A stretch of 64,000 nt of DNA from Agarophyton chilense. Taxonomy: Eukaryota > Rhodophyta > Florideophyceae > Gracilariales > Gracilariaceae. The stretch's first letter is position 1, and each line of letters starts with the position of its first letter. Below are positions 12,441 to 56,661 of this stretch, in pieces. Below the pieces are notes generated by a model that did no database searches, was not told the DNA's origin, and was given only the letters and a program-made list of their open reading frames with translations. The stretch is from positions 785,895 through 849,894 of the forward strand of contig JARGXX010000077.1 of the NCBI GenBank assembly GCA_030374765.1. The letters run 5' to 3'. A program made the position numbers and the translations under genes.

Positions 12441-12647
12441 AATTCATGAGAAAGGTACACTGCTACGGAACGGCTACCGAAGAGCGCTTAACGACTATCA
12501 CAGAAGATCAATGAAATCTGTAGTGACCGAAATTATAATAGCACACCCCCACATTTTTTATGTCTCTCGACTTCCTGGGGAGTGTTTCAAATGAGAGGCG
12601 GTCGACATCGACAACCAATAAAACAGGTATCAAAAGCTGTGCCATCG

Positions 12648-12845
12648 TCAGTGTTCTCGGAATGCTAGTTCAGTGGTCAAAAAAGGACGAATTGAAATGA
12701 CCGAAAAACCATTGAATTTATCCAAATTTGGAGGTGTTAATTTCCGAAAATATTTTCATTCGTTCATTAGTGCTAGTTTGTATGGGAAGGAAAACTAGCA
12801 CATATCTGCAGTTTTTCTAGTTTTGATGGAGGTAAAACTAGCATG
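12648..12845 (+). promoter_or_regulatory. Left subterminal region with AACTAGC/GCTAGTT motifs
   Basis: Five copies of the GCTAGTT/AACTAGC core lie within ~180 bp of the terminus: 12664, 12772, 12793, 12817 (partial) and 12834, in both orientations. Clustered short subterminal motifs are typical transposase-binding sites in DNA transposons. The right arm has the mirror set (about 33,089-33,270). Confidence 0.5.
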
Positions 12846-13144
12846 AATCTTTCTGTCGCCGCAGTTTAAAGGTAAAAGTAGAGAAGTGGTGCAGGAGCAG
12901 ATTCAATCTTTGTGCGCTCTAGATTGACAGATTAGTACAAACAACCGGTCCCAAAATGGACCTCAAAATAGAAATTGAACATTTAGTACCATCCATATCA
13001 ATCGCAATAGAATCGCAGCCCGACCTGGCAGACCTCACGTGCCTTGCATTCTATATTATTCTCCACCTGCCCTGTGTGCGCCATACTCTCTCTCCGTCTA
13101 CGCCCCCTACCAACTTCTTTCCCACCACCTCTCCTCCACCCACC

Positions 13145-16100
13145 ATGCCTTCCTGCTGCTTCAACGGTTGCTCCTTCTTCGCCCGAGAAATCCCCGCCCT
13201 CCAGCGGCACCAGAGAAGGTGGCCTCATCGCCTCTCCGCCAACAAGCGCTTTTTCTCCCCTGGCGGAAATGAACCCAACTTCCCCCCCCGCACAAAACGC
13301 CACAAGTCCACCTCACAACTCCCCCCTCATCCTCCTCCCTCACATCGCCCTTCCGACAACGTCCTTCTCGCACACCATGACTCCTACCTCCAAGACCAGC
13401 TCTCTCTCTCCCTCCACACCCAGGACGCCATCCACGTCGCCACTGCCCCTCTCGGTTCCCCCTCCTCTCTCGCTCTCTCCCCCGTCCCTCCTTCCACTCC
13501 CCCCCTCGACAACCCCCACCTGGAGAAAATGGTCCTCTACATCTCCTCCATCGCCTCCAAGCTTGGACAACGAAAGGCTGACGAACTCCTCACTCTCCTT
13601 AATGATCCCCACTTCTCCGAATCAACATTCCAGAACTCAGTCTCCTCCGCAAAGCAATTCCTCGAGCTCCAGGCAGACCTCTTCCACCAGAGAATCAGGT
13701 CCATTGGTTTCGCCCCCTCCACCATCTTCGATCCCCACAAACGCTTCTCCGCAACACTCTTCCAGAAAGACGCAATCCATGTCCTCAAACAACAGCTCGC
13801 CCTCGCACACTTCAAGAACACCTTTTCCACCCCATCTCTCAAACATCCGCCTCCGGCTCCCCCGCCTTCGCACACCCCATGGCAGCCACCCTCGGCTCAA
13901 AAGTCGTCCCCGCACTCAAGACCGCCATCATGCATTCCACAAAAGATAACATCGTCTGGCATCTCCCTCACTCCACCGGTAACGACTCCTTCATCGGCCT
14001 CGTCCAAATCTACTCCGACAAGTCCTCTACCTCTCTCAAATCTTCTTCCATCACCTCCTACCCCCTCGGCATCACCCTTCTCAACTTCTCCGACTCCTTT
14101 CGCCGCAAATGCATCTCCGACAATCTCACACTCCTCGGCTATCTTGCCACCCCCTTCACCCCAATCACTCCTTCTCCAGATGCAGGTATCATCACTCATT
14201 CCTCCTCCATCCCCCGCCAAACAAAAATGGAACTCATACAGCAGACCATCTCCTCCCTCCTTCAACCTCTCTTCTCTTCCGCCCTCCCCGGTTTCCCCTT
14301 CCGCGACGCAGACGGCGTTCTTCGTCAATGCCACCCCATCATCGCCAGCTACTGCGCAGACATTCCCGAGGCAAAAGATATTCTCGCCATCTCCCACGGC
14401 ACCCGCCCCCAGCACCCCTGCCACAGATGCTCTGTCCCTCGCTCACAACTCCACCAACACTTTCACGCCCATCCCCCTCGATCTCTTCCCCTCACCCTTG
14501 CAGCCCGCAACAAACACTTCTCCCTCCTCAAGGACTCCGAAGCAGCTCTCCTCGCCCGCAAGCCAAGAGTCTCGCGGAACTTCTAGGAACAAGCTCTCCA
14601 AGCACTCCACTCCCTCTCCCTCGCAAATTACCCCTCCCTCTTCGAGTCTTACCCCCTTTTCAACTTCACCCCCCTCCTCACCCCATACAACATCTTCCCG
14701 TTCGAACCACTCCACAACTTCCACCTCGGCGTTTCCAAACTCATCAAGCTCGCCGCCATCGAACGTCTCAGATCCGAACACCTCTTCACCACCATCAGCT
14801 CCACAAACTCCCGCCGTTCCTTCCACTCCGTCCGCACCTCCATCCTCAAGCACTCCAACTTCATCCTCACCGCCATCGAAATCATTCCCCAGCTACCGGC
14901 CTCCACATCGACTTCTCTACTTCCGAAAGCGGGCAGTCCCTCAACGGCTTCTTCACAACTGACGGCGTCCGCGGCATGCTAGAAGCAAAAGACTACCGCG
15001 CCCTCGACATGGTCTTCCCCTTCATCGGCGCCTTCTTCGACGGCTGCTGTGACGAAGCCAATTCCGCTCCCATCACAACCGTCTTCTCCAAGTACACAGA
15101 CCTCCTCCTCACCTCCATGTGCTACAACTCCGTCCCCGAATGGACCACTTCTCGTCTTGCCAAACTCGCCTCCCAAATCCATTCCTTCAAGCACAGAGCT
15201 GTCGATGTTCTCGGTCCATACCATACCTCCAACCTTGGCACCCTCAAATTCCACCTCCTCGATCACATCGTAGACGACATTTGACGCTTTGGGGGTCTCC
15301 ACTTCAACGATGCAGGCATCTTCGAAAAAGCCCATACTTTCTTCAAAGCACGTTACACCCGAACCTCCAAGCGCAGACCCACCGCGCACAACGAAACCAT
15401 CCGTGCCATCGAACGCTCCGATGCCGTCCACAATTGGATTTCTCTCTCCGCTGATCCTTCCGTCACCTCATCCTCCCATGCCCCTCCTCCTCCCTTCCAA
15501 GCCCGCAAACCAGGTTTCGTCCGTGATGGCAAGCACACCTCCTTTTCCGATCTCATCACCGCTCACAAATTCCTTCGAGCAAACCCCCACTCAACAATCT
15601 CTTCCCTTCAGGACCTCTTCTCCCCAGACACTATCGCCATCATCTCACAGATTGGAACCCTCGCACTCCCCTCCTTCGTCACACTCACACTCGAAACACT
15701 AGCTCTCAACCAGGACTCCCCCACTCTCCGCCAAACCCGTCTCACATTCGTCAATTCCGCATACGTCGTCGGCGGCTTCACCCCAACCCTACACGACTAC
15801 ATCGCCGATCGAAACGAGCTCGCCGTCAAAGATCCCCCTCTCCCACTCATTCAACGTATCTTCGCTGCTCCCTCCTTCGGTCCCTCTAAAACCCCAAAGT
15901 TCTCCCACATCCTCGTTGCCGGTTCCAGCTTCTCCAACCCCACTCCCACCGCCTGGGTCTGCAAGCTCAACTCTCTTCTTCGCTTCACCACCCCTTCTTC
16001 CCCTTCCACTCATAACGAGTTCGCCTTCGTTCAGTTCCTCGAACTCGTTCCACCCCAGGATCAAGTCGATGTCTCTCTCAATTGCATCTGCCTCCGATGG

Positions 16101-16406
16101 GCAACAGACGACGAACAAAACCACACCGCCCACCCCCTTCCTATCTCAAACACTTCCAACTCCGACAACGTCTCCCCCTGGTTCGGCCTCGTACCATCCT
16201 CTTCCATTCTCGGCCCCGTTCATGTACTTCGCCAAAACTACCCCGCACCCCCCTTCACCCCTCGATTGCACTGGCGCGTCCATCGATTTTACCTCAACAG
16301 ATTCTACCGAGACCCAACTGCAAAGCCCTACTTCTCCAACACCACAACTGGTGGCACAACACCACCACTGGGTGGCACCCATAATAATACCTCCCAAGGC
16401 ACATGA
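13145..16406 (+). pseudogene. KDZ/Plavaka-like transposase, left arm
   Basis: The N-terminus has a C2H2-type finger (CCFNGCSFF...HQRRWPH). The body has CADIPEAKDI and HPCHRCSVPRSQL, PLHNFHLGVSKL, a C-terminal LLDHIVDDI-RFGG segment and FEKAHTFFKARY-TSKRR, the pattern I know from Plavaka/KDZ transposases. The protein would be near 1,085 residues and would act on the element's ends. Here it is broken four times: a -1 shift near 13,831, TAG at 14584, a -1 shift near 14,880 and TGA at 15282. The TAG and TGA also occur in the right arm; the two shifts do not. An in-frame ATG further upstream at 12956 is an alternative start. An AATAAA follows the stop at 16410. Confidence 0.65.
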
Positions 16407-16493
16407 TCCAATAAAATAGTCACCGCTGCTTTTCTTCCATAGCCGACCCCTATCTTGCTCCACCTCCTTACCCCCTTATCCCCCCGTACCTTA

Positions 16494-19127
16494 TCACTCT
16501 CCCACTCCTTGTCTACTCCCCAACGCTAAGCGCTTGATCCGTGGTTCTTCTGGTCCACATGACGCTATATAGCAATCTGACACCGCTCCAAGTCTTCTCG
16601 TGAGATTCTCCATGAAAAACTCCTCCCTTATCGCCAGATAGATTTTCTCTCTCGACGATATCCATAGCCCAACCGTCGCGATTCTCTCCTTATTCCCACT
16701 CACATCTCTACGATTCCCTCCACAGAATCCATCATTCTCAAACTCCTCAGCATACTCATCCTTCACCATGTTCCAGGGAACCCTCAATATGTCCTCAACA
16801 GCCAGTGGCAGAAACCTCCCAAACAGCGTCGAGAACAAAAGTTGCCTTTGGCCTCCCCGCCCAACGTCTCTATCCATCGTGGTCACCACACATCCAATCC
16901 ATGCATCAAGTCGCGCAAGATGCATCACCGTCCCATCCACATACTGCCTTTCTCCATTTCTGTGACTCTCTACCGCGTAGCCCATAAACTCCTCCAACAC
17001 TTTCAACGACACCTGATTTCGAAAATACATATCTGCCTCACCAAAGTCCCCCAAGTTCTCAGACACCTTCGATCCAGAATAAGTAATATCTTCAATCGCA
17101 CTCGTTCTCCACGCACACAGCTTACCTCTCCCATCCTCCTTCGACCCCATCAACTTCTCCTGCGCCTCCTCAATCTGCTTCTTCAACTGCGCCCAAAGCT
17201 CCGTCTCTTCAGTCACCTTAGCTCGTTTCGCCATCAAATCATATCCAAGCATGGAAAACAGCTTATCACGCGCTGCTCGCTTCCGCACCCCAACCACATC
17301 GCTCAATGTCTGCTTCATCCTCTGTCTCAAGCACCTATCCACACTTACATTTTCCAAGCACTTCTCTCTCCTCCCCGCCTCCCTTATCGACTCCCATTTC
17401 TCTCCCATTAACTCAGTCTCTACCACGTGCTTCAACAACAAATGGCTCCCGCCCTCTGTCGACGGCGTATACGGTCTCATCTCATATGCAACCTCAATTG
17501 GACATCTCGGAACCATTTCCTTCTCTCCCACCACAAACATACTTTTCTCCCTACTCTCCCCAACCGCCTCACTTCTATTCTTCCAGCTTCGACCCACATT
17601 CTCGTTGTCGAAGCAAAGTTCCGATGCCTCCAGTTTTGCATAATGAAGAATCCTATCATACACACGACGTGCAAATCCATAAAAGCATTCCTGCACTCCA
17701 ATGTCATACTTTCGTCGCCGCGTCACGCCTCCCTCCCCCCTCCCTTCCCCAGCGATTCTACCTTTCAACGCCTCCCTCACACTCTCAATCAGCACATTCT
17801 GCTGCTTCATTTCCTCCCTCGCCCGATCCAGCTCTGTTTGGGTCATTTTCAAACTCACCATCACACTGTAGCTGTCTTCCTTCATACGTCCCATTTGTCC
17901 CTTCAACACATTCATCTTCTCAATTAGCATCGACTGCGGCAACAAACCTATGTCATCACCATTTGCTTCATCTTCCACTATACGGACGGCGTTCTCCACG
18001 ACATTTAAATTCGCATTCTCCCCGTTATCATTATTCCTTGTGAATACAATGGTTCTCCTTACTCGCATACCTTCCGGCGTCCTTCGCCTTGCGTTCACCT
18101 CAAACCCTTCAACTCCTAAACCCACCCCTCTCCTCGGTGGCAAACGCTCGACATCTTCTCCCTGATGAGAAAGAACTGCTGCTCTTCCATCGCCTCCCTC
18201 TCCTGAACCACGTGTTCTCCCTCCAGCAAACCCCCTTCTCCCCCCCTCACTCACATGCACTTCTCTGCTTTCCCTTTCGTCTATCGCTCTTCTTCCTGTA
18301 ACTCGAACACTCCCCATTCTTTCCCTTGCACGCTCTCTCCTTTCTTCCACGTATTCCAAGTTCGCCCCCTCCCATCTTTCCGCCTGTTCCCCCGCGGTAA
18401 CTCCAACACTCTCTCCTTCTGTTCTCTCTCGAACGACTCTTGCGCCCGCGATTAGACCACTACTGGGTCCACCTATTCTACCTTCCCCACCACGGCTACT
18501 CTCTATTCTCCCTTTCTGTATCTCATCATCACCGTCCTCTTCCCTCATACCCGTAAACGATGCCCCTGCTTCTTCAACGCCTCTGAGGCGGGATCCACGT
18601 TCTCCGATCATTCTCTCTCCCTCCTTACGCCCCTTCGTCCTCTCATTCGGAATCTCTTCACCTCCTTCAGGTGCAGAGCATGGATTTACCGGCTCCACAT
18701 CAGCTGAAGACGTGAGTACAGCACTTAGAGTCCGCTCGGATGCATCCCCTCTCCTTGTCCTCCCTGGAGCTCTGCTCGCCCTCCCCCGCAATCCACTTCT
18801 AGGTACACGCGTGCGGTTGCTTCGCACGCCATCCCGTTTTCCATCGCCGCTCCGCACCATCTCTCCCGTAGGCGACGTGATTTGCTCCACACTCTCCTCC
18901 ATCACCGTCTCCTTTGCGCGAACTGCCCTTCCTTTGCCCCCACTCGCCTCTCCTTCCCCACCATCTTGCCTTGATCTGCCTCTCAGGCGCACGCCTCCCT
19001 TCTCTCCACTCGGGCCCTGGAGCCTACGCCCCTTGTCTCTTCCGCCCTCCGCATCCCCTCCATGCCGCCGTGATTTTGTACCGCGCCCGCTAGTGTTCTC
19101 GCTTCTCGATTGGCGCTTCGGAGCCAT
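16494..19127 (-). CDS. 877-aa basic/coiled-coil protein of unknown function, left arm
   Basis: Fully open frame; I choose the ATG of MAPKRQS because the right arm has a stop in place of a Trp codon just upstream of it. The N-terminal ~380 residues are rich in Arg, Gly, Glu and Ser with no fold I can see. A predicted coiled coil follows at roughly 400-455 (heptads with QMGRMKEDSYSVMVSLKM). The C-terminal ~400 residues look globular and helical, with a moderate number of Cys and Trp. I do not recognise a family. It is transcribed in the same direction as the methyltransferase gene upstream and is convergent with the transposase (stops 88 bp apart). It is intact in both arms, unlike its neighbours. 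A nucleic-acid-binding partner of transposition or replication is a guess. Confidence 0.75.
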   Translation of the reverse strand: MAPKRQSRSENTSGRGTKSRRHGGDAEGGRDKGRRLQGPSGEKGGVRLRGRSRQDGGEGEASGGKGRAVRAKETVMEESVEQITSPTGEMVRSGDGKRDGVRSNRTRVPRSGLRGRASRAPGRTRRGDASERTLSAVLTSSADVEPVNPCSAPEGGEEIPNERTKGRKEGERMIGERGSRLRGVEEAGASFTGMREEDGDDEIQKGRIESSRGGEGRIGGPSSGLIAGARVVRERTEGESVGVTAGEQAERWEGANLEYVEERRERARERMGSVRVTGRRAIDERESREVHVSEGGRRGFAGGRTRGSGEGGDGRAAVLSHQGEDVERLPPRRGVGLGVEGFEVNARRRTPEGMRVRRTIVFTRNNDNGENANLNVVENAVRIVEDEANGDDIGLLPQSMLIEKMNVLKGQMGRMKEDSYSVMVSLKMTQTELDRAREEMKQQNVLIESVREALKGRIAGEGRGEGGVTRRRKYDIGVQECFYGFARRVYDRILHYAKLEASELCFDNENVGRSWKNRSEAVGESREKSMFVVGEKEMVPRCPIEVAYEMRPYTPSTEGGSHLLLKHVVETELMGEKWESIREAGRREKCLENVSVDRCLRQRMKQTLSDVVGVRKRAARDKLFSMLGYDLMAKRAKVTEETELWAQLKKQIEEAQEKLMGSKEDGRGKLCAWRTSAIEDITYSGSKVSENLGDFGEADMYFRNQVSLKVLEEFMGYAVESHRNGERQYVDGTVMHLARLDAWIGCVVTTMDRDVGRGGQRQLLFSTLFGRFLPLAVEDILRVPWNMVKDEYAEEFENDGFCGGNRRDVSGNKERIATVGLWISSREKIYLAIREEFFMENLTRRLGAVSDCYIASCGPEEPRIKRLALGSRQGVGE

Positions 19128-19451
19128 GGTTGAAGAGAGAGAGAGCGATCGTGGTATGGTCTTCCACGCGTTGCAATGCGATGGATGGGAGAGAAGCTTC
19201 GAAACATTCTGCTTCCAAAAATATACCTCCACCCTTTTCGTGTTCTCAGAAAACCCCCAAACTTTTCAGATATTTTAAATATGCGCTCGAACGCACCAGA
19301 TATTGGGAAAGTATTCTCCTTCGGTGTACATGACTTTCCTTTAGCATATGTACTACGTCACGCTTTGACGTTATATGTAGCGACAAACATAGTAAAAGCC
19401 CACAATATCTGGTACACTACAATGAAGTAAAGTAACAAAAGCGATGCACTT

Positions 19452-22400
19452 TTAATCGATTACTATGACTGGCGTGTTATTCATACTCCAGATATACTCT
19501 GTCCCATAATCCGCGAACAGCTCCTCTCCTATTTCTATATCTCGAATTGCTTGCACAGAAAGCAATCTATAGTCTCTCAACTGAAATGGGGTCCGCCCCG
19601 TCCCCGGAGTTCTGATGACCCGAACATTTGCAGTTCGGCGTCTCATTAACCCTTCTTCAACCGCATCCCTGTCCCTATCCCCTTCCACATACTTGGGGTC
19701 GTTAATTGTTCCCCCCAAGCAAAATGGAGCAGGGACAATCCACACCGGAATAAGAGACACCCCACTAATTCTTCCTGGTAGCTTGTGAAACACTTCCCCT
19801 CGGACGCTTATCTCCATCGCTTACTGCCGAAAACGATCAGCAGTCGCTTTCAATAGCCCCCCTCCGTATGCCTTATGAACTTCCTTCCACTTTGAAAGAT
19901 TATGGTACACCAAAGTCCCATAAAAGTAACAAACAGTCTCACCTTGTATCACCCGGCGTGTTGTGTACACACCAACTCCAGCATTCGGGTGCCTTATCGT
20001 CGACTTTGCAATCCGACAACCACATACTGTCGCCTCCACTGCCAGAATAGCATTCCAATCCAACAGTGACATCTTTCCTTGAAAACTTTTTGGCCACTCA
20101 TACAGCGCCTGCCGTCGCCCAATCTCCGATATATTCTTATCCTGCCACATGGAGGAGAGAAAATCCACGATATGGGGTGGAAACATCTGATGCTCGGGAA
20201 ATCCGGTAGGTGTTTTCCAGGACTTCGAACGCTTTATGACGACGTCCGGAAACAAGCATGTCACTCGAGTAACAGCGTTCCGAACATCTTGCGTTATATG
20301 AATGTCCGTCTCGTTGTTCCGCATGCATGACGCAAATTTCACTGTAGCGGCGTGCTTCGCATGAGCAAAGCACTGCGGATCTGGCTCACACCCTAGAAAC
20401 TGACGGTGCTTTTCCAGTTCCATGCATGCCATGGCCGTTGAAAATGTTCGGGCGAAGAGGTCCACCACTATGTCTCCCGGCTGAGAAAACCTGCTGATGA
20501 GCTCCTTCAGAAAAGCGCGTGACTTCTGTTCCGCCCGCACTTTCTGATACGTAACTGCTCCTTTGGCATTCTTCCTTCTCCATAGAAGTGTTTCACCATT
20601 AGACATGGGAGGCACTTGGTCAATCACGCTATGGTAACCCGGATATCGCGATGGTACATAGCTGAAGTTCTCATAGTTCACCATGCCATGTTGTTCGGCG
20701 TAGGACAACCCGCTGCGAACTCCATGAATGGCGTACTCTGTTCCGGGAAACAGGGAGCACGAACTACGTCCGGGATTACGCATCGGATTGCCTTCAGAGC
20801 GAATGAAGTGCAACTGGACCTTGTCCACGACAAACGACCTGCTCTTCTGTCCATTCTCATCCTTTGCAGCAATTCGACCCAACACTTCTTTCCATTCGTT
20901 CACCTGCTCAACCGCGCAGAATATAACGAAATGCCCTCCCGGACGCAGAAGTTTAGAGATGAGCTTCGCCGTCTTCACCATGTCTTGCCGGTTCAGAACG
21001 TCGTACCAGCTGTTTTTCCTGTTCTTCTTCGCACGTATATTATACGGCGGGTCCGTGAGAACTAACTGCACTTTCCCTATCGGAGAGACCCCATTGCTGC
21101 GCAATGTCTCGTCAATCTCCACCAGGTTCTCGAAAGTACAATTGTACATTCGACAGTGCTTATCCATCTCCGACTCGCACTTTTGGAGAGACATTATATC
21201 ATCCAGAGAGGTAAGGTCGTGAGGCGGCAGAATGTCCACCGACTCAGATTCGACCGACCTTGGTCCAGCTGTGGAAGAATGCTGACCAACACCCATGTTC
21301 TCTTCCTCATTCCCGGTCCCACCCTCCACTCCCTCTCCACCCTCCACCGCCGGAGCCTCCGAATCTTTCTCAGGGGGTACAACTTCTATCTCGTCTTCTT
21401 CCATAACCATAGTAGGTTCCGCCTTTGTCGCAGCCACCACTTCCACCTCCACACTCCCTCGCAGCTTTAGTGGCGATATGTATTCCGAGATGGTAGAGAT
21501 AAGAGAGTTTGAGAAGCAGTCGAATCTCTCCGCAAACACTCTGGGCAAATTGTATGTAAACGGTTTTAGAACGTCCCATCTTTCCGGAGCTGATATAGAG
21601 TAAAGCTGCTCATTCACCACCACTTTGTGCAGGTCAGCGAGAAACTCTTTGGCCAACATACGAAGTGGAGTGTCAACGTACTCCGGCAGGTTTTACGCCC
21701 ATGGGATGACATCCTCCTCCAATAAAGTACGGTTTCTACCAGGAAGGAGTCGTTGGGCCATGTCCTTGTGAGAGAACCCATCCCTTCTGTTTCCGATTGC
21801 CTGGAACTGCATATCAGAATATCGTAGATGGATAAAGGGCAAAACCATGAATTCCACGCCAGGGAATCCCAAATACTGGGCGAAGCTGTCCCACGCGTTA
21901 TTGACGAGCTGCACACCAAAACCCACACGCTGAGCTACTGGTTTGTCATAAATCGTCACCTTCGAAAATGGCGTATCGTAGGTTCTGTCCCGCTTTCTTC
22001 GCTTACGGGAGACTCTTCTCTTCTCCATAGAGACCGACTGAATACAAATGAAGAACAGCAACCTCTGGAACATTGTCGGGAAGTCGGTCGCGAATGGAGC
22101 CCGGCATTTGCTCGCCTTCTTTCGGGTTGTATCCAGACCTTTGAAGAACTCTGTCAAAGTGACATTCTTCGGGATGCCCTTGAACTCCACCGCCTCGTAC
22201 GCGTTCCAAAAGTCCCTCACGCGCCTATCTGGGTCCCCATCCCTTATATCCAGCAACCTCGCCGAGAAATAATTCTGATAGTTCGAGCCCCTCATTCCTA
22301 CAACTCGGAGCTCATCTTCTGTGTAATTGGTGTGGTCGGGATCTAGGAGAGTATAAAAAAACTTCGCGGTCTCCAGTAGGATGTGGCGATTGGCAATTGC

Positions 22401-22583
22401 GAAATCGATTAATGCAGTGTGCCCCACTTTTCGCGGCTCATCTTCCTCCCGCCTCGTTGATGCGTAACGATCACGCATATCCAGACACGCCCTGATAACT
22501 TCATCCCCCGTACCAAACAGTTTACCCATTTCGAAGGTGTCTGCCGCAGGCGATGAAGAAGTTCTCGTGGGTTCTGGAGCCAT
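19452..22583 (-). CDS. N-domain / DPPY DNA methyltransferase / SET protein, left arm
   Basis: One frame of 1,043 codons interrupted by two TAA codons (after IPWA and after DRFRQ). Part 1 (296 residues) is an unknown, mostly helical domain. Part 2 (612 residues) has an acidic linker and then a beta-class amino-methyltransferase: TDPPYNI at 202-208, RPGGHFVIF at 239-247, and the SAM-site region VVDLFARTF at 398-406, without the usual FxGxG glycines. From residue 546 a SET domain begins (GVGVYTTR 561-568). Part 3 completes it (TINDPKY, IEIGEELFADYG). Motif order IV then I is that of N6-adenine/N4-cytosine enzymes. It would modify DNA and, if active, lysines of histones. The SET tail is complete in this arm. 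Whether the TAAs are read through, mark separate genes or are mutations is open. Confidence 0.65.
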
Positions 22584-23351
22584 TTATGTACGTGTTCGAA
22601 CAACCTCACGGGCGGTCGTCACGAGAGCCTGAGTGAAAGAGAGCAGCGGGTGCGGGTGGGGACGGGTGGGTACGGAAAGATTGTGAGTACGGTTGAGGAG
22701 CGCGCACGGAAGAACGGTTGTTGCGGAACGACTTCGCAGCTATCCTGATTGCATTCTGTCGGCCGTCAGAAGTGCGCTCCGACTTCATCGGGGTCCCGAT
22801 GAAGTCCCCGCGCACCTCTGTCGGCCGACATAATACATATAATTTTGTACTTTTTAGGACGCCCAGGTGTACACGGTGCACTCTGTCGGCCGACAGTCGA
22901 CCAACATCTCAAAAACGCATCATGCGGGATGTTATGGCGTATTTGTCGGCCGACAGGGGTGCCCTGCGACTTCATCGGTCCACCGATGAAGTCGCAGCAC
23001 ACCCCTGTCGGCCGACAATTCACCAACCCGCGCACCTCTGTCGGCCGACAGAGTGCACCGTCTACACCTGGGCGTCCTAAAAAGTACAAAATTATATGTA
23101 TTATGTCGGCCGACAGAGGTGCGCGGGGACTTCATCGGGACCCCCGATGAAGTCGGAGCGCACTTCTGACGGCCGACAGAATGCAACCAGGATAGCTGCG
23201 AAGTCGTTCCGCAACAACCGTTCTTCCGTGCGCGCTCCTCAACCGTACTCACAATCTTTCCGTACCCACCCGTCCCCACCCGCACCCGCTGCTCTCTTTC
23301 ACTCAGGCTCTCGTGACGACCGCCCGTGAGGTTGTTCGAACACGTACATAA
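22584..23351. promoter_or_regulatory. Central divergent control region with iteron-like palindromes
   Basis: The ~770 bp between the two methyltransferase starts hold a 12-bp perfect palindrome TGTCGGCCGACA at 22819, 22884, 22944, 23006, 23039 and 23104, and one-mismatch forms at 22757 and 23167. Start-to-start distances are 62, 65, 60, 62, 33, 65 and 63, close to six (or three) helical turns. Three hairpins with GACTTCATCGG-type arms lie at 22781-22806, 22966-22995 and 23128-23154. The middle one is the centre of symmetry. The arrangement suits a dimeric protein's operator array for two divergent promoters, a replication origin, or both. I see no gene here. Confidence 0.75.
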
Positions 23352-26300
23352 ATGGCTCCAGAACCCACGAGAACTTCTTCATCGCCTGCGGCAGACACCT
23401 TCGAAATGGGTAAACTGTTTGGTACGGGGGATGAAGTTATCAGGGCGTGTCTGGATATGCGTGATCGTTACGCATCAACGAGGCGGGAGGAAGATGAGCC
23501 GCGAAAAGTGGGGCACACTGCATTAATCGATTTCGCAATTGCCAATCGCCACATCCTACTGGAGACCGCGAAGTTTTTTTATACTCTCCTAGATCCCGAC
23601 CACACCAATTACACAGAAGATGAGCTCCGAGTTGTAGGAATGAGGGGCTCGAACTATCAGAATTATTTCTCGGCGAGGTTGCTGGATATAAGGGATGGGG
23701 ACCCAGATAGGCGCGTGAGGGACTTTTGGAACGCGTACGAGGCGGTGGAGTTCAAGGGCATCCCGAAGAATGTCACTTTGACAGAGTTCTTCAAAGGTCT
23801 GGATACAACCCGAAAGAAGGCGAGCAAATGCCGGGCTCCATTCGCGACCGACTTCCCGACAATGTTCCAGAGGTTGCTGTTCTTCATTTGTATTCAGTCG
23901 GTCTCTATGGAGAAGAGAAGAGTCTCCCGTAAGCGAAGAAAGCGGGACAGAACCTACGATACGCCATTTTCGAAGGTGACGATTTATGACAAACCAGTAG
24001 CTCAGCGTGTGGGTTTTGGTGTGCAGCTCGTCAATAACGCGTGGGACAGCTTCGCCCAGTATTTGGGATTCCCTGGCGTGGAATTCATGGTTTTGCCCTT
24101 TATCCATCTACGATATTCTGATATGCAGTTCCAGGCAATCGGAAACAGAAGGGATGGGTTCTCTCACAAGGACATGGCCCAACGACTCCTTCCTGGTAGA
24201 AACCGTACTTTATTGGAGGAGGATGTCATCCCATGGGCGTAAAACCTGCCGGAGTACGTTGACACTCCACTTCGTATGTTGGCCAAAGAGTTTCTCGCTG
24301 ACCTGCACAAAGTGGTGGTGAATGAGCAGCTTTACTCTATATCAGCTCCGGAAAGATGGGACGTTCTAAAACCGTTTACATACAATTTGCCCAGAGTGTT
24401 TGCGGAGAGATTCGACTGCTTCTCAAACTCTCTTATCTCTACCATCTCGGAATACATATCGCCACTAAAGCTGCGAGGGAGTGTGGAGGTGGAAGTGGTG
24501 GCTGCGACAAAGGCGGAACCTACTATGGTTATGGAAGAAGACGAGATAGAAGTTGTACCCCCTGAGAAAGATTCGGAGGCTCCGGCGGTGGAGGGTGGAG
24601 AGGGAGTGGAGGGTGGGACCGGGAATGAGGAAGAGAACATGGGTGTTGGTCAGCATTCTTCCACAGCTGGACCAAGGTCGGTCGAATCTGAGTCGGTGGA
24701 CATTCTGCCGCCTCACGACCTTACCTCTCTGGATGATATAATGTCTCTCCAAAAGTGCGAGTCGGAGATGGATAAGCACTGTCGAATGTACAATTGTACT
24801 TTCGAGAACCTGGTGGAGATTGACGAGACATTGCGCAGCAATGGGGTCTCTCCGATAGGGAAAGTGCAGTTAGTTCTCACGGACCCGCCGTATAATATAC
24901 GTGCGAAGAAGAACAGGAAAAACAGCTGGTACGACGTTCTGAACCGGCAAGACATGGTGAAGACGGCGAAGCTCATCTCTAAACTTCTGCGTCCGGGAGG
25001 GCATTTCGTTATATTCTGCGCGGTTGAGCAGGTGAACGAATGGAAAGAAGTGTTGGGTCGAATTGCTGCAAAGGATGAGAATGGACAGAAGAGCAGGTCG
25101 TTTGTCGTGGACAAGGTCCAGTTGCACTTCATTCGCTCTGAAGGCAATCCGATGCGTAATCCCGGACGTAGTTCGTGCTCCCTGTTTCCCGGAACAGAGT
25201 ACGCCATTCATGGAGTTCGCAGCGGGTTGTCCTACGCCGAACAACATGGCATGGTGAACTATGAGAACTTCAGCTATGTACCATCGCGATATCCGGGTTA
25301 CCATAGCGTGATTGACCAAGTGCCTCCCATGTCTAATGGTGAAACACTTCTATGGAGAAGGAAGAATGCCAAAGGAGCAGTTACGTATCAGAAAGTGCGG
25401 GCGGAACAGAAGTCACGCGCTTTTCTGAAGGAGCTCATCAGCAGGTTTTCTCAGCCGGGAGACATAGTGGTGGACCTCTTCGCCCGAACATTTTCAACGG
25501 CCATGGCATGCATGGAACTGGAAAAGCACCGTCAGTTTCTAGGGTGTGAGCCAGATCCGCAGTGCTTTGCTCATGCGAAGCACGCCGCTACAGTGAAATT
25601 TGCGTCATGCATGCGGAACAACGAGACGGACATTCATATAACGCAAGATGTTCGGAACGCTGTTACTCGAGTGACATGCTTGTTTCCGGACGTCGTCATA
25701 AAGCGTTCGAAGTCCTGGAAAACACCTACCGGATTTCCCGAGCATCAGATGTTTCCACCCCATATCGTGGATTTTCTCTCCTCCATGTGGCAGGATAAGA
25801 ATATATCGGAGATTGGGCGACGGCAGGCGCTGTATGAGTGGCCAAAAAGTTTTCAAGGAAAGATGTCACTGTTGGATTGGAATGCTATTCTGGCAGTGGA
25901 GGCGACAGTATGTGGTTGTCGGATTGCAAAGTCGACGATAAGGCACCCGAATGCTGGAGTTGGTGTGTACACAACACGCCGGGTGATACAAGGTGAGACT
26001 GTTTGTTACTTTTATGGGACTTTGGTGTACCATAATCTTTCAAAGTGGAAGGAAGTTCATAAGGCATACGGAGGGGGGCTATTGAAAGCGACTGCTGATC
26101 GTTTTCGGCAGTAAGCGATGGAGATAAGCGTCCGAGGGGAAGTGTTTCACAAGCTACCAGGAAGAATTAGTGGGGTGTCTCTTATTCCGGTGTGGATTGT
26201 CCCTGCTCCATTTTGCTTGGGGGGAACAATTAACGACCCCAAGTATGTGGAAGGGGATAGGGACAGGGATGCGGTTGAAGAAGGGTTAATGAGACGCCGA

Positions 26301-26481
26301 ACTGCAAATGTTCGGGTCATCAGAACTCCGGGGACGGGGCGGACCCCATTTCAGTTGAGAGACTAGATTGCTTTCTGTGCAAGCAATTCGATATATAGAA
26401 ATAGGAGAGGAGCTGTTCGCGGATTATGGGACAGAGTATATCTGGAGTATGAATAACACGCCAGTCATAGTAATCGATTAA
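23352..26481 (+). pseudogene. N-domain / DPPY DNA methyltransferase / SET protein, right arm
   Basis: Mirror copy of 19452-22583. The N-domain (23352-24242) and the methyltransferase/SET-start part (24276-26114) give the same protein as the left arm with no difference I can find, including both in-frame TAA codons at 24240 and 26112. The SET tail (26118 on) loses 2 bp near 26364 and stops early at 26366, before the IGEELFADYG segment, so this arm cannot make a full SET domain. The first ATG at 23352 lies ~240 bp from the nearest central palindrome. Confidence 0.65.
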
Positions 26482-26805
26482 AAGTGCATCGCTTTTGTTA
26501 CTTTACTTCATTGTAGTGTACCAGATATTGTGGGCTTTTACTATGTTTGTCGCTACATATAACGTCAAAGCGTGACGTAGTACATATGCTAAAGGAAAGT
26601 CATGTACACCGAAGGAGAATACTTTCCCAATATCTGGTGCGTTCGAGCGCATATTTAAAATATCTGAAAAGTTTGGGGGTTTTCTGAGAACACGAAAAGG
26701 GTGGAGGTATATTTTTGAAAGCAGAATGTTTCGAAGCTTCTCTCTCATCCATCGCATTGCAACGCGTGGAAGACCATACCACGATCGCTCTCTCTCTCTT
26801 CAACC

Positions 26806-29439
26806 ATGGCTCCGAAGCGCCAATCGAGAAGCGAGAACACTAGCGGGCGCGGTACAAAATCACGGCGGCATGGAGGGGATGCGGAGGGCGGAAGGGACAA
26901 GGGGCGTAGGCTCCAGGGCCCGAGTGGAGAGAAGGGAGGCGTGCGCCTGAGAGGCAGATCAAGGCAAGATGGTGGGGAAGGAGAGGCGAGTGGGGGCAAA
27001 GGAAGGGCAGTTCGCGCAAAGGAGACGGTGACGGAGGAGAGTGCGGAGCAAATCACGTCGCCTACGGGAGAGATGGTGCGGAGCGGCGATGGAAAACGGG
27101 ATGGCGTGCGAAGCAACCACACGCGTGTACCTAGAAATGGATTGCGGGGGAAGGCGACCAGAGCTCCAGGGAGGACAAGGAGAGGGGATGCATCCGAGCG
27201 GACTCTAAGTGCTGTACTCACGTCTTCAGCTGATGTGGAGCCGGTAAGTCCATGCTCTGCACCTGAAGGAGGTGAAGAGATTCCGAATGAGAGGACGAAG
27301 GGGCGTAAGGAGGGAGAGAGAATGATCGGAGAACGTGGATCCCGCCTCAGAGGCGTTGAAGAAGCAGGGGCATCGTTTACGGGTATGAGGGAAGAGGACG
27401 GTGATGATGAGATACAGAAAGGGAGAATAGAGAGTAGCCGTGGTGGGGAGGGTAGAATAGGTGGACCCAGCAGTGGTCTAATCGCGGGCGCAAGAGTCGT
27501 TCGAGAGAGAACAGAAGGAGAGAGTGTTGGAGTTACCGCGGGGGAACAGGCGGAAAGATGGGAGGGGGCGAACTTGGAATACGTGGAAGAAAGGAGAGAG
27601 CGTGCAAGGGAAAGAATGGGGAGTGTTCGAGTTACAGGAAGAAGAGCGATAGACGAAAGGGAAAGCAGAGAAGTGCATGTGAGTGAGGGGGGGAGAAGGG
27701 GGTTTGCTGGAGGGAGAACACGTGGTTCAGGAGAGGGAGGCGATGGAAGAGCAGCAGTTCTTTCTCATCAGGGAGAAGATGTCGAGCGTTTGCCACCGAG
27801 GAGAGGGGTGGGTTTGGGAGTTGAAGGGTTTGAGGTGAACGCAAGGCGAAGGACGCCGGAAGGTATGCGAGTAAGGAGAACCATTGTATTCACAAGGAAT
27901 AATGATAACGGGGAGAATGCGAATTTAAATGTCGTGGAGAACGCCGTCCGTATAGTGGAAGATGAAGCAAATGGTGATGACATAGGTTTGTTGCCGCGGT
28001 CGATGCTAATTGAGAAGATGAATGAGTTGAAGGGACAAATGGGACGTATGAAGGAAGACAGCTACAGTGTGATGGTGAGTTTGAAAATGACCCAAACAGA
28101 GCTGGATCGGGCGAGGGAGGAAATGAAGCAGCAGAATGTGCTGATTGAGAGTGTGAGGGAGGCGTTGAAAGGTAGAATCGCTGGGGAAGGGAGGGGGGAG
28201 GGAGGCGTGACGCGGCGACGAAAGTATGACATTGGAGTGCAGGAATGCTTTTATGGATTTGCACGTCGTGTGTATGATAGGATTCTTCATTATGCAAAAC
28301 TGGAGGCATCGGAACTTTGCTTCGACAACGAGAATGTGGGTCGAAGCTGGAAGAATAGAAGTGAGGCGGTTGGGGAGAGTAGGGAGAAAAGTATGTTTGT
28401 GGTGGGAGAGAAGGAAATGGTTCCGAGATGTCCAATTGAGGTTGCATATGAGATGAGACCGTATACGCCGTCGACAGAGGGCGGGAGCCATTTGTTGTTG
28501 AAGCACGTGGTAGAGACTGAGTTAATGGGAGAGAAATGGGAGTCGATAAGGGAGGCGGGGAGGAGAGAGAAGTGCTTGGAAAATGTAAGTGTGGATAGGT
28601 GCTTGAGACAGAGGATGAAGCAGACATTGAGCGATGTGGTTGGGGTGCGGAAGCGAGCAGCGCGTGATAAGCTGTTTTCCATGCTTGGATATGATTTGAT
28701 GGCGAAACGAGCTAAGGTGACTGAAGAGACGGAGCTTTGGGCGCAGTTGAAGAAGCAGATTGAGGAGGCGCAGGAGAAGTTGATGGGGTCGGGGGAGGAT
28801 GGGAGAGGTAAGCTGTGTGCGTGGAGAACGAGTGCGATTGAAGATATTACTTATTCTGGATCGAAGGTGTCTGAGAACTTGGGGGACTTTGGTGAGGCAG
28901 ATATGTATTTTCGAAATCAGGTGTCGTTGAAAGTGTTGGAGGAGTTTATGGGCTACGCGGTAGAGAGTCACAGAAATGGAGAAAGGCAGTATGTGGATGG
29001 GACGGTGATGCATCTTGCGCGACTTGATGCATGGATTGGATGTGTGGTGACCACGATGGATAGAGACGTTGGGCGGGGAGGCCAAAGGCAACTTTTGTTC
29101 TCGACGCTGTTTGGGAGGTTTCTGCCACTGGCTGTTGAGGACATATTGAGGGTTCCCTGGAACATGGTGAAGGATGAGTATGCTGAGGAGTTTGAGAATG
29201 ATGGATTCTGTGGAGGGAATCGTAGAGATGTGAGTGGGAATAAGGAGAGAATCGCGACGGTTGGGCTATGGATATCGTCGAGAGAGAAAATCTATCTGGC
29301 GATAAGGGAGGAGTTTTTCATGGAGAATCTCACGAGAAGACTTGGAGCGGTGTCAGATTGCTATATAGCGTCATGTGGACCAGAAGAACCACGGATCAAG
29401 CGCTTAGCGTTGGGGAGTAGACAAGGAGTGGGAGAGTGA
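26806..29439 (+). CDS. 877-aa basic/coiled-coil protein of unknown function, right arm
   Basis: Intact mirror copy of 16494-19127. About ten residues differ between the arms, several in the disordered N-terminus (for example VMEESV against VTEESA) and LPQS against LPRS before the coiled coil. There are no stops or shifts. Conservation of this frame while neighbouring frames decay suggests recent selection or recent copying. The family is not recognised. The gene ends 76 bp before the mirrored transposase stop. Confidence 0.75.
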   Translation: MAPKRQSRSENTSGRGTKSRRHGGDAEGGRDKGRRLQGPSGEKGGVRLRGRSRQDGGEGEASGGKGRAVRAKETVTEESAEQITSPTGEMVRSGDGKRDGVRSNHTRVPRNGLRGKATRAPGRTRRGDASERTLSAVLTSSADVEPVSPCSAPEGGEEIPNERTKGRKEGERMIGERGSRLRGVEEAGASFTGMREEDGDDEIQKGRIESSRGGEGRIGGPSSGLIAGARVVRERTEGESVGVTAGEQAERWEGANLEYVEERRERARERMGSVRVTGRRAIDERESREVHVSEGGRRGFAGGRTRGSGEGGDGRAAVLSHQGEDVERLPPRRGVGLGVEGFEVNARRRTPEGMRVRRTIVFTRNNDNGENANLNVVENAVRIVEDEANGDDIGLLPRSMLIEKMNELKGQMGRMKEDSYSVMVSLKMTQTELDRAREEMKQQNVLIESVREALKGRIAGEGRGEGGVTRRRKYDIGVQECFYGFARRVYDRILHYAKLEASELCFDNENVGRSWKNRSEAVGESREKSMFVVGEKEMVPRCPIEVAYEMRPYTPSTEGGSHLLLKHVVETELMGEKWESIREAGRREKCLENVSVDRCLRQRMKQTLSDVVGVRKRAARDKLFSMLGYDLMAKRAKVTEETELWAQLKKQIEEAQEKLMGSGEDGRGKLCAWRTSAIEDITYSGSKVSENLGDFGEADMYFRNQVSLKVLEEFMGYAVESHRNGERQYVDGTVMHLARLDAWIGCVVTTMDRDVGRGGQRQLLFSTLFGRFLPLAVEDILRVPWNMVKDEYAEEFENDGFCGGNRRDVSGNKERIATVGLWISSREKIYLAIREEFFMENLTRRLGAVSDCYIASCGPEEPRIKRLALGSRQGVGE

Positions 29440-29527
29440 TAAGGTACGGGGGGATAAGGGGGTAAGGAGGTGGAGCAAGATAGGGGTCGGCTATGGAAGA
29501 AAAGCAGCGGTGACTATTTTATTGGAT

Positions 29528-32500
29528 CATGTGCCTTGGGAGGTATTATTATGGGTGCCACCCAGTGGTGGTGTTGTGCCACCAGTTGTGGTGTTGGAGA
29601 AGTAGGGATTTGCAGTTGGGTCTCGGTAGAATCTGTTGAGGTAAAATCGATGGACGCGCCAGTGCAATCGAGGGGTGAAGGGGGGTGCGGGGTAGTTTTG
29701 GCGAAGTACATGAACGGGGCCGAGAATGGAAGAGGATGGTACGAGGCCGAACCAGGGGGAGACGTTGTCGGAGTTGGAAGTGTTTGAGATAGGAAGGGGG
29801 TGGGCGGTGTGGTTTTGTTCGTCGTCTGTTGCCCATCGGAGGCAGATGCAATTGAGAGAGACATCGACTTGATCCTGGGGTGGAACGAGTTCGAGGAACT
29901 GAACGAAGGCGAACTCGTTATGAGTGGAAGGGGAAGAAGGGGTGGTGAAGCGAAGAAGAGAGTTGAGCTTGCAGACCCAGGCGGTGGGAGTGGGGTTGGA
30001 GAAGCTGGAACCGGCAACGAGGATGTGGGAGAACTTTGGGGTTTTAGAGGGACCGAAGGAGGGAGCAGCGAAGATACGTTGAATGAGTGGGAGAGGGGGA
30101 TCTTTGACGGCGAGCTCGTTTCGATCGGCGATGTAGTCGTCTAGGGTTGGGGTGAAGCCGCCGACGACGTATGCGGAATTGACGAATGTGAGACGGGTTT
30201 GGCGGAGAGTGGGGGAGTCCTGGTTGAGAGCTAGTGTTTCGAGTGTGAGTGTGACGAAGGAGGGGAGTGCGAGGGTTCCAATCTGTGAGATGATGGCGAT
30301 AGTGTCTGGGGAGAAGAGGTCCTGAAGGGAAGAGATTGTTGAGTGGGGGTTTGCTCGAAGGAATTTGTGAGCAGTGATGAGATCGGAAAAGGAGGTGTGC
30401 TTGCCATCACGGACGAAACCTGGTTTGCGGGCTTGGAAGGGAGGAGAAGGGGCATGGGAGGATGAGGTGACGGAAGGATCAGCAGAGAGAGAAATCCAAT
30501 TGTTGACGGCATCGGAGCGTTCGATGGCACGGATGGTTTCGTTGTGCGCGGTGGGTCTGCGCTTGGAGGTTCGGGAGTAATGTGCTTTGAAGAAAGTATG
30601 GGCTTTTTCGAAGATGCCTGCATCGTTGAAGTGGAGACCCCCAAAGCGTCAAATGTCGTCTACGATGTGATCGGGGAGGTGGAATTTGAGGGTGCCAAGG
30701 TTGGAGGTATGGTATGGACCTAGAACATCGACAGCTCTGTGCTTGAAGGAATGGATTTGGGAGGCGAGTTTGGCAAGACGAGAAGTGGTCCATTCGGGGA
30801 CGGAGTTGTAGCACATGGAGGTGAGGAGGAGGTCTGTGTACTTGGAGAAGACGGTTGTGATGGGAGCGGAATTGGCTTCGTCACAGCAGCCGTCGAAGAA
30901 GGCGCCGATGAAGGGGAAGACCATGTCGAGGGCGCGGTAGTCTTTTGCTTCTAGCATGCCGCGGACGCTGTCAGTTGTGAAGAAGCCGTTGAGGTACTGC
31001 CCGCTTTCGGAAGTAGAGAAGTCGATGTGGAGGCCGGTAGCTGGGGAATGATTTTCGATGGCGGTGAGGATGAAGTTGGAGTGCTTGAGGATGGAGGTGC
31101 GGACGGAGTGGAAGGAACGGCGGGAGTTTGTGGAGCTGATGGTGGTGAAGAGGTGTTCGGATCTGAGACGTTCGATGGCGGCGAGCTTGATGAGTTTGGA
31201 AACGCCGAGGTGGAAGTTGTGGAGTGGTTCGAAGGGGAAGATGTTGTATGGGGTGAGGAGGGGGGTGAAGTTGAAAAGGGGGTAAGACTCGAAGAGGGAG
31301 GGGTAATTTGCGAGGGAGAGGGAGTGGAGTGCTTGGAGAGCTTGTTCCTAGAAGTTGCGCGAGACTCTTGGCTTGCGGGCGAGGAGAGCTGCTTCGGAGT
31401 CCTTGAGGAGGGAGAAGTGTTTGTTGCGGGCTGCAAGGGTGAGGGGAAGAGATCGAGGGAGATGGGCGTGAAAGTGTTGGTGGAGTTGTGAGCGAGGGAC
31501 AGAGCATCTGTGGCAGGGGTGCTGGGGGCGGGTGCCGTGGGAGATGGCGAGAATATCCTTTGCCTCGGGAATGTCTGCGCAGTAGCTGGCGATGATGGGG
31601 TGGCATTGACGAAGAACGCCGTCCGCGTCGCGGAAGGGGAAACCGGGGAGGGCGGAAGAGAAGAGAGGTTGAAGGAGGGAGGAGATGGTCTGCTGTATGA
31701 GTTCCATTTTTGTTTGGCTGGGGATGGAGGAGGAATGAGTGATGATACCTGCATCTGGAGAAGGAGTGATTGGGGTGAAGGAGGTGGGAAGATAGCCGAG
31801 GAGTGTGAGATTGTCGGAGATGCATTTGCGGCGAAAGGAGTCGGAGAAGTTGAGAAGGGTGACGCAGAGGGGGTAGGAGGTGATGGAAGAAGATTTGAGA
31901 GAGGTAGAGGACTTGTCGGAGTAGATTTGGACGAGGCCGATGAAGGAGTCGATACCGGTGGAGTGAGGGAGATGCCAGACGATGTTATCTTTTGGGGACT
32001 GCATGATGGCGGTCTTGAGTGCGGGGACGACTTTTGAGCCGAGGGTGGCTGCCATGGGGTGTGCGAAGGCGGGGGAGCCGGAGGCGGATGTTTGGAAGAT
32101 GGGGTGGAAAAAGGTGTTCTTGAAGTGTGCGAGGGCGAGTTGTTGTTTGAGGACATGGATTGCGTCTTTCTGGAAGAGGATTGCGGAGAAGCGTTTGTGG
32201 GGATCGAAGATGGTGGAGGGGGCGAAACCAATGGACCTGATTCTCTGGTGGAAGAGGTCTGCCTGGAGCTCGAGGCATTGCTTTGCGGAGGAGACTGAGT
32301 TCCGGAATGTTGATTCGGAGAAGTGGGGATCATTAAGGAGAGTGATGAGTTCGTCATCTTTTCGTTGTCCAAGCTTGGAGGCGATGGAGGAGATGTAGAG
32401 GACCATTTTCTCCAGGTGGGGGTTGTCGAGGGGGGGAGTGGAAGGAGGGAGGGGGGAGAGAGCGAGAGAGGAGGGAGAACCGAGAGGGGCAGTGGCGACG

Positions 32501-32789
32501 TGGATGGCGTCCTGGGTGTGGAGGGAGAGAGAGAGCTGGTCTTAGAGGTAGGAGTCATGGTGTGTGAGAGGGACGTTGTCGGAAGGGCGATGTGAGGGAG
32601 GAGGATGAGGGGGGAGTTGTGAGGTGGACTTGTGGCGTTTTGTGCGGGGGGGAAGTTGGGTTCATTTCCGCCAGGAGAGAGGAAGCGCTTGTTGGCGGAG
32701 AGGCGATGAGGCCACCTTCTCTGGTGCCGCTGGAGGTCGGGGATTTCTCGGGCGAAGAAGGAGCAACCGTTGAAGCAGCAGGAAGGCAT
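29528..32789 (-). pseudogene. KDZ/Plavaka-like transposase, right arm
   Basis: Mirror copy of 13145-16406. The central and C-terminal frame is cleaner than in the left arm: 31348-32406 reads unbroken through the region where the left arm is shifted, and the A run near 31,054 is full length. It still has the shared TAG (near 31,346) and TGA (near 30,652). The N-terminus carries its own damage: a shortened C run after the zinc finger (near 32,650) and a TAA replacing a Gln codon (near 32,543). No arm therefore holds a whole transposase. The finger is CCFNGCSFF...HQRRWPH as on the left. Confidence 0.65.
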
Positions 32790-33288
32790 GGTGGGTGGAG
32801 GAGAGGTGGTGGGAAAGAAGTTGGTAGGGGGCGTAGACGGAGAGAGATTATGGCGCACACAGGGCAGGTGGAGAATAATATAGAATGCAAGGCACGTGAG
32901 GTCTGCCAGGTCGGGCTGCGATTCTATTGCGATTGATATGGATGGTACTAAATGTTCAATTTCTATTTTGAGGTCCATTTTGGGACCGGTTGTTTGTACT
33001 AATCTGTCAATCTAGAGCGCACAAAGATTGAATCTGCTCCTGCACCACTTCTCTACTTTTACCTTTAAACTGCCGCGACAGAAAGATTCACGCTAGTTTT
33101 ACCTCCATCAAAACTAGAAAAACTGCAGATATGTGCTAGTTTTCCTTCCCATACAAACTAGCACTAATGAACGAATGAAAATATTTTCGGAAATTAACAC
33201 CTCCAAATTTGGATAAATTCACTGGTTTTTCGGTCATTTCAATTCGTCCTTTTTTGACCACTGAACTAGCATTCTGAGAACACTGACG

Positions 33289-33974: not shown

Positions 33975-33975
33975 C

Positions 33976-37763: not shown

Positions 37764-37778
37764 GGTAGGAAGGGGGTC
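37764..37778 (+). other. Gypsy-3 polypurine tract
   Basis: GGTAGGAAGGGGGTC directly before the LTR start at 37779. This is the expected plus-strand primer and resembles the purine run beside the Gypsy-4 3' LTR. Confidence 0.6.
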
Positions 37779-38243: not shown

Positions 38244-38325
38244 TAGGCTAGTCGCCCCGCCGTTTGCCCATGCGGGTTTTCACGGTGCCCTGTTACCATC
38301 GAGGTTTACTACGTCTACCTTCCAA

Positions 38326-38375: not shown

Positions 38376-38407
38376 AAAAGACAGTATCATACCCCAGAGG
38401 TGATTGT

Positions 38408-56660: not shown

Positions 56661-56661
56661 A

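Follow-up and report, generated by a model that had tools for sequence, protein, structure and literature searches.

We analyzed a 64,000-nucleotide stretch of the genome of the red alga Agarophyton chilense (hereafter, the window), which is the final 64 kb of contig JARGXX010000077.1 (C77) in assembly GCA_030374765.1 (79.8 Mb, 135 contigs). The window contains a 20.6-kb palindrome, each arm of which is the transposase-side half of a larger DNA transposon that encodes a fusion of a DNA methyltransferase with a SET domain. The best explanation of the results as a whole, to which we assign a probability of roughly two in three, is that an approximately 18-kb transposon family carries genes by which it may mark itself, and that the palindrome consists of the joined halves of two copies. 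Positions are those of the window unless a contig or locus is named.

When the methyltransferase frame was searched against the genome, we obtained 74 matches, namely 64 rows at 82-100% identity, which include the window's own two and several pieces of single copies, and 10 at 42-43% identity. Many non-palindromic copies were among them, and the full element proved to be about 18 kb long. The boundary on the transposase side was sharp: 39 rows besides the query's own locus ended at query positions 387-397, and the boundary at query position 389 corresponds to 33288 of the window. On the other side of a hairpin array that lies inside the element, all 40 rows listed for a query taken from contig C105, that copy included, began at query position 1 or 2. 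The termini read CGTC[T/A]GTG... and occur in two variants, one per element end, the terminal inverted repeats being imperfect. This pattern, with up to two mismatches, was found 126 times in forward and 116 times in reverse orientation (242 in total; about 100 places listed), against 0 and 0 for the control. The C105 copy spans 875169-893176 (18,008 bp), and a 2-bp target duplication (TA, TT, TG or AA) was present in all 11 copies in which both flanks were read. The family consists of DNA transposons that have terminal inverted repeats, duplicate 2 bp of the target and encode a Plavaka-type transposase at one end. The methyltransferase-SET genes at loci L003 and L005-L009 were 99.6-99.97% identical to that of C105 (L004), and such near-identical copies with intact genes suggest that the element moved recently.

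Gene content was taken from the C105 copy, which was read whole, and from a copy on contig C10, which was read except for about 14 bases at the 5' end. From the 5' end, the element contains a reductase-like frame, a 275-aa frame, a 1228-aa gene on the opposite strand and the hairpin array, followed by the methyltransferase-SET gene, an 877-aa gene and the transposase gene on the opposite strand. The number of hairpin units differed among loci (the array was readable in 13 of 30 loci by a forward-strand scan), and the C105 unit folds into a strong hairpin that is interrupted by a single internal loop (3x3). A compact version of the element, 4.8 kb long, was found at C3:24930-29760; it has the family termini and hairpin units, its transposase is truncated, and about 1.9 kb of it is filler unrelated to the element. 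We considered whether compact copies are ancestral; the C3 copy, the one that was read, looks instead like an internal deletion of the large element, the matching parts being 94-98% identical.

The transposase matched PF18759 at 81.5 bits (cut-off 26.3), with 123 matches in the genome. In the window it occupies multiple frames in both arms, at 29527-33011 on the minus strand (PF18759, E = 7.6e-21, within 31351-32406) and at 12923-16406 on the plus strand (Plavaka match at C77:799878-800417). Plavaka transposases have C(2)C and H(3-4)H motifs between the second D and the last E; the uninterrupted transposase of C10, which is 1087 aa long counted from its first C/H-rich motif, contains CxxC (CHRC) at 426, HxxxH (HLLDH) at 704 and E at 728, this E being chosen by eye. 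The sequence-only reading had called the protein KDZ/Plavaka-like, of which the Plavaka part was confirmed by the profile match and the KDZ part fell away: KDZ (Zisupton) elements make 8-bp target duplications, and this element makes 2 bp. According to the cited sections of Kojima (2025; PMC12730594), Plavaka belongs to the CACTA/EnSpm-Mirage-Chapaev-Transib (CMCT) clade, outside KDZ, so that the KDZ label for Plavaka is out of date. The subgroups PlavakaA and PlavakaB are set there by termini and target duplication. The duplications in the 11 copies agree with those of both (2 bp in A, 2-3 bp in B); the termini match neither TGT..ACA (PlavakaA) nor CATCA..TGATG (PlavakaB). Accordingly, the transposase is of Plavaka type but belongs to neither described subgroup.

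The arms of the palindrome (left, 12646-22896, reverse orientation, minus strand; right, 23038-33288, plus strand) aligned as inverted copies with 99.27% identity over 10,254 columns (69 mismatches, 5 gaps), a match far above chance expectation. This bore out the earlier description of inverted arms of about 10.25 kb around a short centre. The centre (22897-23037) contains a 76-bp palindromic unit and belongs to a remnant of the hairpin array at 22750-23185, identified by self-alignments, in which units of about 76 bp (TGTCGGCCGACA...ACTTCATCGG..CCGATGAAGT...) mark the join of the two halves. Both outer ends are family termini: the transposase-side terminal inverted repeat lies at 12646-12668 on the plus strand (CGTCAGTGTTCTCGGAATGCTAG), as indicated by the genome pattern count and the sharp family boundary, and that of the other copy, with one mismatch to the first, at 33266-33288 on the minus strand, as indicated by self-alignment and the family boundary. 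Thus, the window keeps two transposase-side halves, head to head, and lacks the 5' half with the 1228-aa gene and two further frames. The sequence-only reading had presented the arms as an element in themselves, a 20.6-kb transposon with a methyltransferase-SET gene; its claim about the cargo stands, as the gene lies between terminal repeats in dozens of copies, whereas each arm is one half of a longer element rather than a whole copy.

The host repeat at one outer end differs from that at the other. The left end cuts repeat X (12522-12645), of which four copies (L067-L070) are continuous over the junction, and the right end cuts repeat Y (33289-34400), which on inspection looks like the integrase region of a retrotransposon; 39 other search rows for Y started at query positions 59-66 (the junction being 60), and three copies (L064-L066) are continuous across it. 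The flanking dinucleotides, AT and CA, form no shared target duplication. Ends in two host repeats indicate that the outer ends are two insertions into two targets. In comparison with C10 and C105, 85 changes were common to both arms, 36 were private to the right arm and 28 to the left; the shared changes may also fall on the branch to C10 and C105, and two arm differences at the very centre are sites without polarisation. The outermost 1.3 kb contained 2 shared and 24 private changes, the inner 9 kb 83 and 40, and the inner 3 kb 34 and 0. This pattern fits a head-to-head join of two copies followed by evening out from the centre. A single fold-back duplication of one copy was disfavoured by the same counts in the outermost 1.3 kb and by the different host repeats at the ends.

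We therefore propose that two copies had inserted head to head into different host repeats, that recombination at their hairpin arrays may then have removed both 5' halves and the intervening DNA, and that gene conversion would have evened out the inner arms. Since each hairpin unit is its own inverted copy, recombination between arrays could fuse the two and delete the DNA between them. Head-to-head neighbours 34-58 kb apart on contigs C98, C105 and C99 could be precursors of such a structure. The fold-back shape looks like an accident and not like the form of the transposon. The alternative that survives best, although we consider it rather unlikely, is an assembly error, in which single copies within repeats X and Y were joined through the hairpin array and the palindrome does not exist in the organism. 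The two different repeats at the ends, the self-complementary centre and the absence of private changes from the inner 3 kb of either arm would all be expected of such an error, and in the list of 74 matches no pair other than that of the window lies on opposite strands less than 10 kb apart. However, the arms differ at 69 positions, and the transition across the inner 9 kb is gradual, whereas the two arms, had one collapsed repeat served for both, would more probably be identical up to a sharp break.

The METHYLTRANSFERASE-SET protein is a methyltransferase-SET fusion that is uninterrupted over 1043 aa in other copies, where it matched N6_N4_Mtase at 66.9 bits (cut-off 26.7) and SET (PF00856) at 23.4 bits (cut-off 22.4). 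The frame was intact in 12 of 28 other copies aligned, the youngest included. In the window, both copies of the gene are broken: the right one (23352-26481, plus strand) by a length change and stops, leaving frames at 23352-24242 and 24276-26114 (296 and 612 aa), and the left one (19452-22583, minus strand) by two internal stops. The methyltransferase/SET frame that had been noted in each arm was therefore upheld as to its methyltransferase (N6_N4_Mtase in the 612-aa frame, E = 5.8e-16) but not as an intact gene, and no SET match was reported for the window frames in Pfam at E <= 1, although the intact frame elsewhere passes the SET cut-off.

A search of a collection of 5.8 billion sequences (sources lgn, ena and jgi) returned 21 relatives at E <= 1e-3. 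In an alignment of 13 of these with the element protein (14 rows, 28-50% identity), D511, P512 and P513 and the motif-I residues G712 and T713 were invariant and Y514 was present in at least 90% of rows. DPPY precedes the motif-I GT, a domain order that we take to be that of beta-class DPPY DNA methyltransferases. The alignment profile found eight sequences with solved structures at E <= 1e-3, named DpnA, CcrM, MboIIA or RsrI or, in two cases, simply methyltransferase. Because these relatives are adenine methyltransferases, the target of the enzyme is probably N6-adenine; N4-cytosine is possible. Canonical SET domains contain the motifs NHxxxN and GEELxxDY; in the element protein GEELFADYG is present, and IND...AN stands where the NH motif is expected. 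In a tree of 19 of the 21 relatives (P0020 and P0021 were left out) and the two lineages of the host genome, the element protein grouped with P0001 and the second lineage, that of the matches at 42-43% identity, with P0002, both with support of 100/100, and long branches occurred elsewhere in the tree. These groupings indicate that the split between the two lineages long predates their copies within the genome. No viral relatives were confirmed when viral_contigs was scanned with the two alignments (methyltransferase-SET and dioxygenase-like), and genome_contigs likewise gave none.

The 1228-aa gene lies across the array from the methyltransferase-SET gene in both elements read. It is intact on C10 (L059:1498-5184) and interrupted by a stop on C105 (L035:6777-9899), and the genome contains 45 matches, with pieces counted. 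Its protein contains a ParB-like DGHHR motif and an HxD..H..R motif, the latter being of the kind that 2OG-Fe(II) dioxygenases have in a double-stranded beta helix. The sole relative found, P0022, is 30% identical, and HTD, FHAGAGY and RYHMYLVPD are conserved in these two sequences; the ParB-like match was weak and occurred in P0022 only (PHROG, E = 0.018). No match in Pfam, NCBIfam or PDB sequences supported a dioxygenase, and Tet_JBP was absent from the Pfam matches of a 1041-aa piece of the protein at E <= 1. Some TET/JBP types are visible only by structure-based comparison (Kojima, 2025, section 3.2.3; PMC12730594), so the protein may still be a distant TET/JBP relative. The reductase-like frame matched 2-dehydropantoate 2-reductase in NCBIfam at E = 8e-4 (18.7 bits; cut-off 360) and ApbA_C in Pfam only at E = 0.038. 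The 877-aa gene that had been described in each arm was found as an 877-aa frame with a basic N-terminal part in the right arm (26806-29439, plus strand), where it is open, and as a 912-aa frame from GTG in the left arm (16494-19232, minus strand); it is split across two frames in C105 and C10. The protein has four relatives and may be coiled-coil-like according to weak matches, none of which exceeded any Pfam cut-off (best, Syntaphilin, 16 bits against 25).

We suggest that the transposase would cut and paste the element, and that the methyltransferase and SET domain may mark its DNA and nucleosomes. Such marking might keep the chromatin of the element open against silencing or time transposition after replication. 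No C5 methyltransferase was found in the genome by a six-frame search that disregarded introns and that detected one in 10 of 14 control genomes; any mark is therefore likely not 5-methylcytosine (5mC). Repeat-induced point mutation or decay of 5mC was examined and rejected: C-to-T changes per site were 0.122 at CA (least), 0.159 at CC, 0.167 at CT and 0.190 at CG (slightly most).

Several observations weigh against this interpretation. The methyltransferase activity and the marking of DNA are predictions from sequence, the SET motif is altered around the usual NHxxxN, and 'dioxygenase-like' describes motifs in two sequences and not membership of a family. The silencing that the element might evade is only postulated, since no C5 methyltransferase was found and CpG depletion in the element is weak (observed/expected 0.85). 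Further, we saw no purifying selection among the 28 copies of the methyltransferase-SET gene, in which the nonsynonymous-to-synonymous (N/S) ratio of singletons was 2.51 against a neutral expectation of 2.57; the present copies drift. Finally, as discussed above, a misassembly at the array, itself rather unlikely, would give a similar palindrome.

The neutral N/S ratio and the many broken frames would also be expected if the cargo were a passenger without benefit, its genes having been caught between the termini and now decaying. We regard this as unlikely, because the motifs of the fusion are kept over 28-50% identity in the 13 relatives aligned and in the second genomic lineage, where the fusion is intact in the C34 copy read, and because the intact frames include those of the youngest copies; moreover, transposon genes usually drift neutrally once inserted. 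Less probable still is a role of the ParB-like and methyltransferase-SET proteins in marking sites of integration or in blocking competing elements, by which the element would mark target chromatin and not itself. Bacterial adenine DNA methyltransferases, which are the relatives with solved structures, act on short motifs at any location, which would suit such a role, but the known precedents have been interpreted as anti-silencing in the cited sections of Kojima (2025; PMC12730594). It is highly improbable that the palindrome is a working 20.6-kb transposon with the inverted arms as its ends, as the sequence-only reading proposed: both outer ends are family termini, but they lack the 2-bp duplication that ordinary copies have in 11 of 11 cases and lie in two targets, no second palindromic copy occurs among the matches listed, and both methyltransferase-SET genes are broken.

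The element shows a marked strand asymmetry. GC skew is about -0.45 at the 5' end of the 18-kb element, reaches +0.56 close to the 3' end and changes sign at the array, at 7.8 kb; in the window outside the palindrome the median absolute skew was 0.035 (42 one-kb bins) and the maximum 0.323. At fourfold sites of C10, plus-strand skew was -0.90, -0.24 and -0.50 in the three frames to the left of the array, and +0.39, +0.76 and +0.94 in the three to its right (for the 877-aa gene, in its 583-codon frame). Genes run in both directions on each side, and the sign follows the side; since it is independent of gene direction, the skew is not readily explained by codon preference or transcription alone. 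Fixed outward replication from the array would explain it, and the array would then be replication-origin-like. For the methyltransferase gene, point changes in resident copies predicted a skew of -0.04 (95% interval -0.21 to 0.13), where 0.16 was observed, and for the right half they predicted 0.05 (-0.38 to 0.445), where 0.47 was observed; another estimate, based on 37 changes, was -0.11, with no usable bootstrap interval. Changes after insertion thus appear not to sustain the skew, and perhaps it was built up in an extrachromosomal phase of the element. Against an origin, the interval for the right half nearly reaches the observed skew, the 275-aa frame is more weakly skewed (-0.24) and the compact copy is skewed only in its transposase part. 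We therefore put forward only tentatively, as an unlikely but coherent possibility, that the fused protein places two marks on the transposon, one on its DNA other than 5mC and one on its histones, and that the transposon has its own replication origin in the hairpin array. If the apparent meaning of the skew is right, the element is a eukaryotic transposon that bears a replicon-like signature.

The second methyltransferase-SET lineage consists of the 10 matches at 42-43% identity. For nine of them a contig end is no more than 15 kb away and for one, on C92, about 57 kb, and all 10 genes are directed away from the nearer end. On C34 (1-20000), the only contig on which the array of this lineage was read, a 772-bp tandem array and an intact 1141-aa methyltransferase-SET frame (SET, 25.9 bits) are followed, about 0.9 kb on, by an intact 1880-aa helicase frame with OrsD, DEAD and Helicase_C domains (Pfam). 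Fourfold skew was milder there (-0.29 and -0.36). The distance from the end of the methyltransferase match to the start of the helicase match was 2,331-2,332 bp in 10 of 10 listed copies. Among 31 helicase matches listed, 21 had no methyltransferase-SET partner listed, both lists scoring only the best candidates; 25 of the 31 were less than 30 kb from a contig end, two were at 51-61 kb and four were not placed. Four successive TTAGGG telomere repeats were not found in the genome, and the contig ends may represent chromosome ends. The neighbouring gene, with OrsD and a RecQ-type helicase, is presumably of the telomere-linked helicase type known from fungi. Such a helicase would by itself point to a fungus or a relative of fungi; Chitin_synth_1 had no match in the genome, a result that says little because the 14 control genomes had none either. 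The likeness to the fungal telomere-linked RecQ helicases with an OrsD finger lies in such a helicase adjoining the second lineage near contig ends, and the difference in its methyltransferase-SET partner; we know of no described partner of this kind. The lineage hints that a like enzyme was taken up near chromosome ends.

Other features of the window lie outside the palindrome. A direct 7.2-kb duplication (39578-45915 and 46778-53087, about 99% identical) contains in each copy a protein kinase frame, 1161 or 1146 aa long, and a 270-bp part of it recurs at 11240-11508. An LTR-type retrotransposon occupies 53087-64000, with 1.18-kb direct repeats that are 98.4% identical and reverse transcriptase, integrase and gag frames; the contig terminates inside its second repeat. 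At 37778-38616 lies an inverted repeat, the arms of which are each about 205 bp long, are 91% alike and stand 431 bp apart.

Several known systems share parts of this organization. In the cited sections of Kojima (2025; PMC12730594), TET/JBP cargo is described in 11 transposon lineages. PlavakaA and PlavakaB share with the present element the PF18759 domain, target duplications of 2 bp and the CxxC and HxxxH motifs ahead of the last E. In contrast, the element has CGTC[T/A]GTG... termini, a length of 18 kb with five cargo frames, and a methyltransferase-SET gene with no recognised TET/JBP gene. KDZ and other TET/JBP-carrying fungal transposons are likewise DNA transposons with a DNA-base-modifying enzyme, and the element possibly has dioxygenase-like cargo as well; however, it has no Tet_JBP match in Pfam, its enzyme adds methyl groups, and Zisupton duplicates 8 bp instead of 2 bp. 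SET genes borne by HarbingerS and oomycete MuDR transposons are cited in the same source, whereas here SET is fused to a DNA methyltransferase in a Plavaka-type element. Mobile elements with their own DNA methyltransferases are described in the cited sections of de Mendoza et al. (2018; PMC5890265), namely DNMTs in retrotransposons of Symbiodinium and charophytes and, as cited there, Dam-like adenine methyltransferases in DIRS elements; these differ in being retrotransposons with other classes of methyltransferase, and those sections describe no SET fusion. In Amoebidium, giant repeats are flanked by Plavaka and, separately, a Dam methyltransferase gene occurs in adintovirus-like insertions, but the Plavaka cargo there consists of tyrosine recombinases, and the cited sections mention no methyltransferase-SET fusion (PMC11244446). 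The 6mA writers of Mucorales belong to other families, MetB (PF02384) and MT-A70, in the sections cited (PMC11258239).

In the portions of the openly licensed literature covered, we found no description of a Plavaka element with a DNA methyltransferase-SET fusion. Thus, the gene cargo looks new, although TET/JBP erasers, SET genes and DNA methyltransferases have each been known as transposon cargo. With a fused DNA methyltransferase-SET enzyme on one cut-and-paste transposon, and no C5 methyltransferase found in the genome, self-marking by a mark other than 5mC would be directly testable by long reads.

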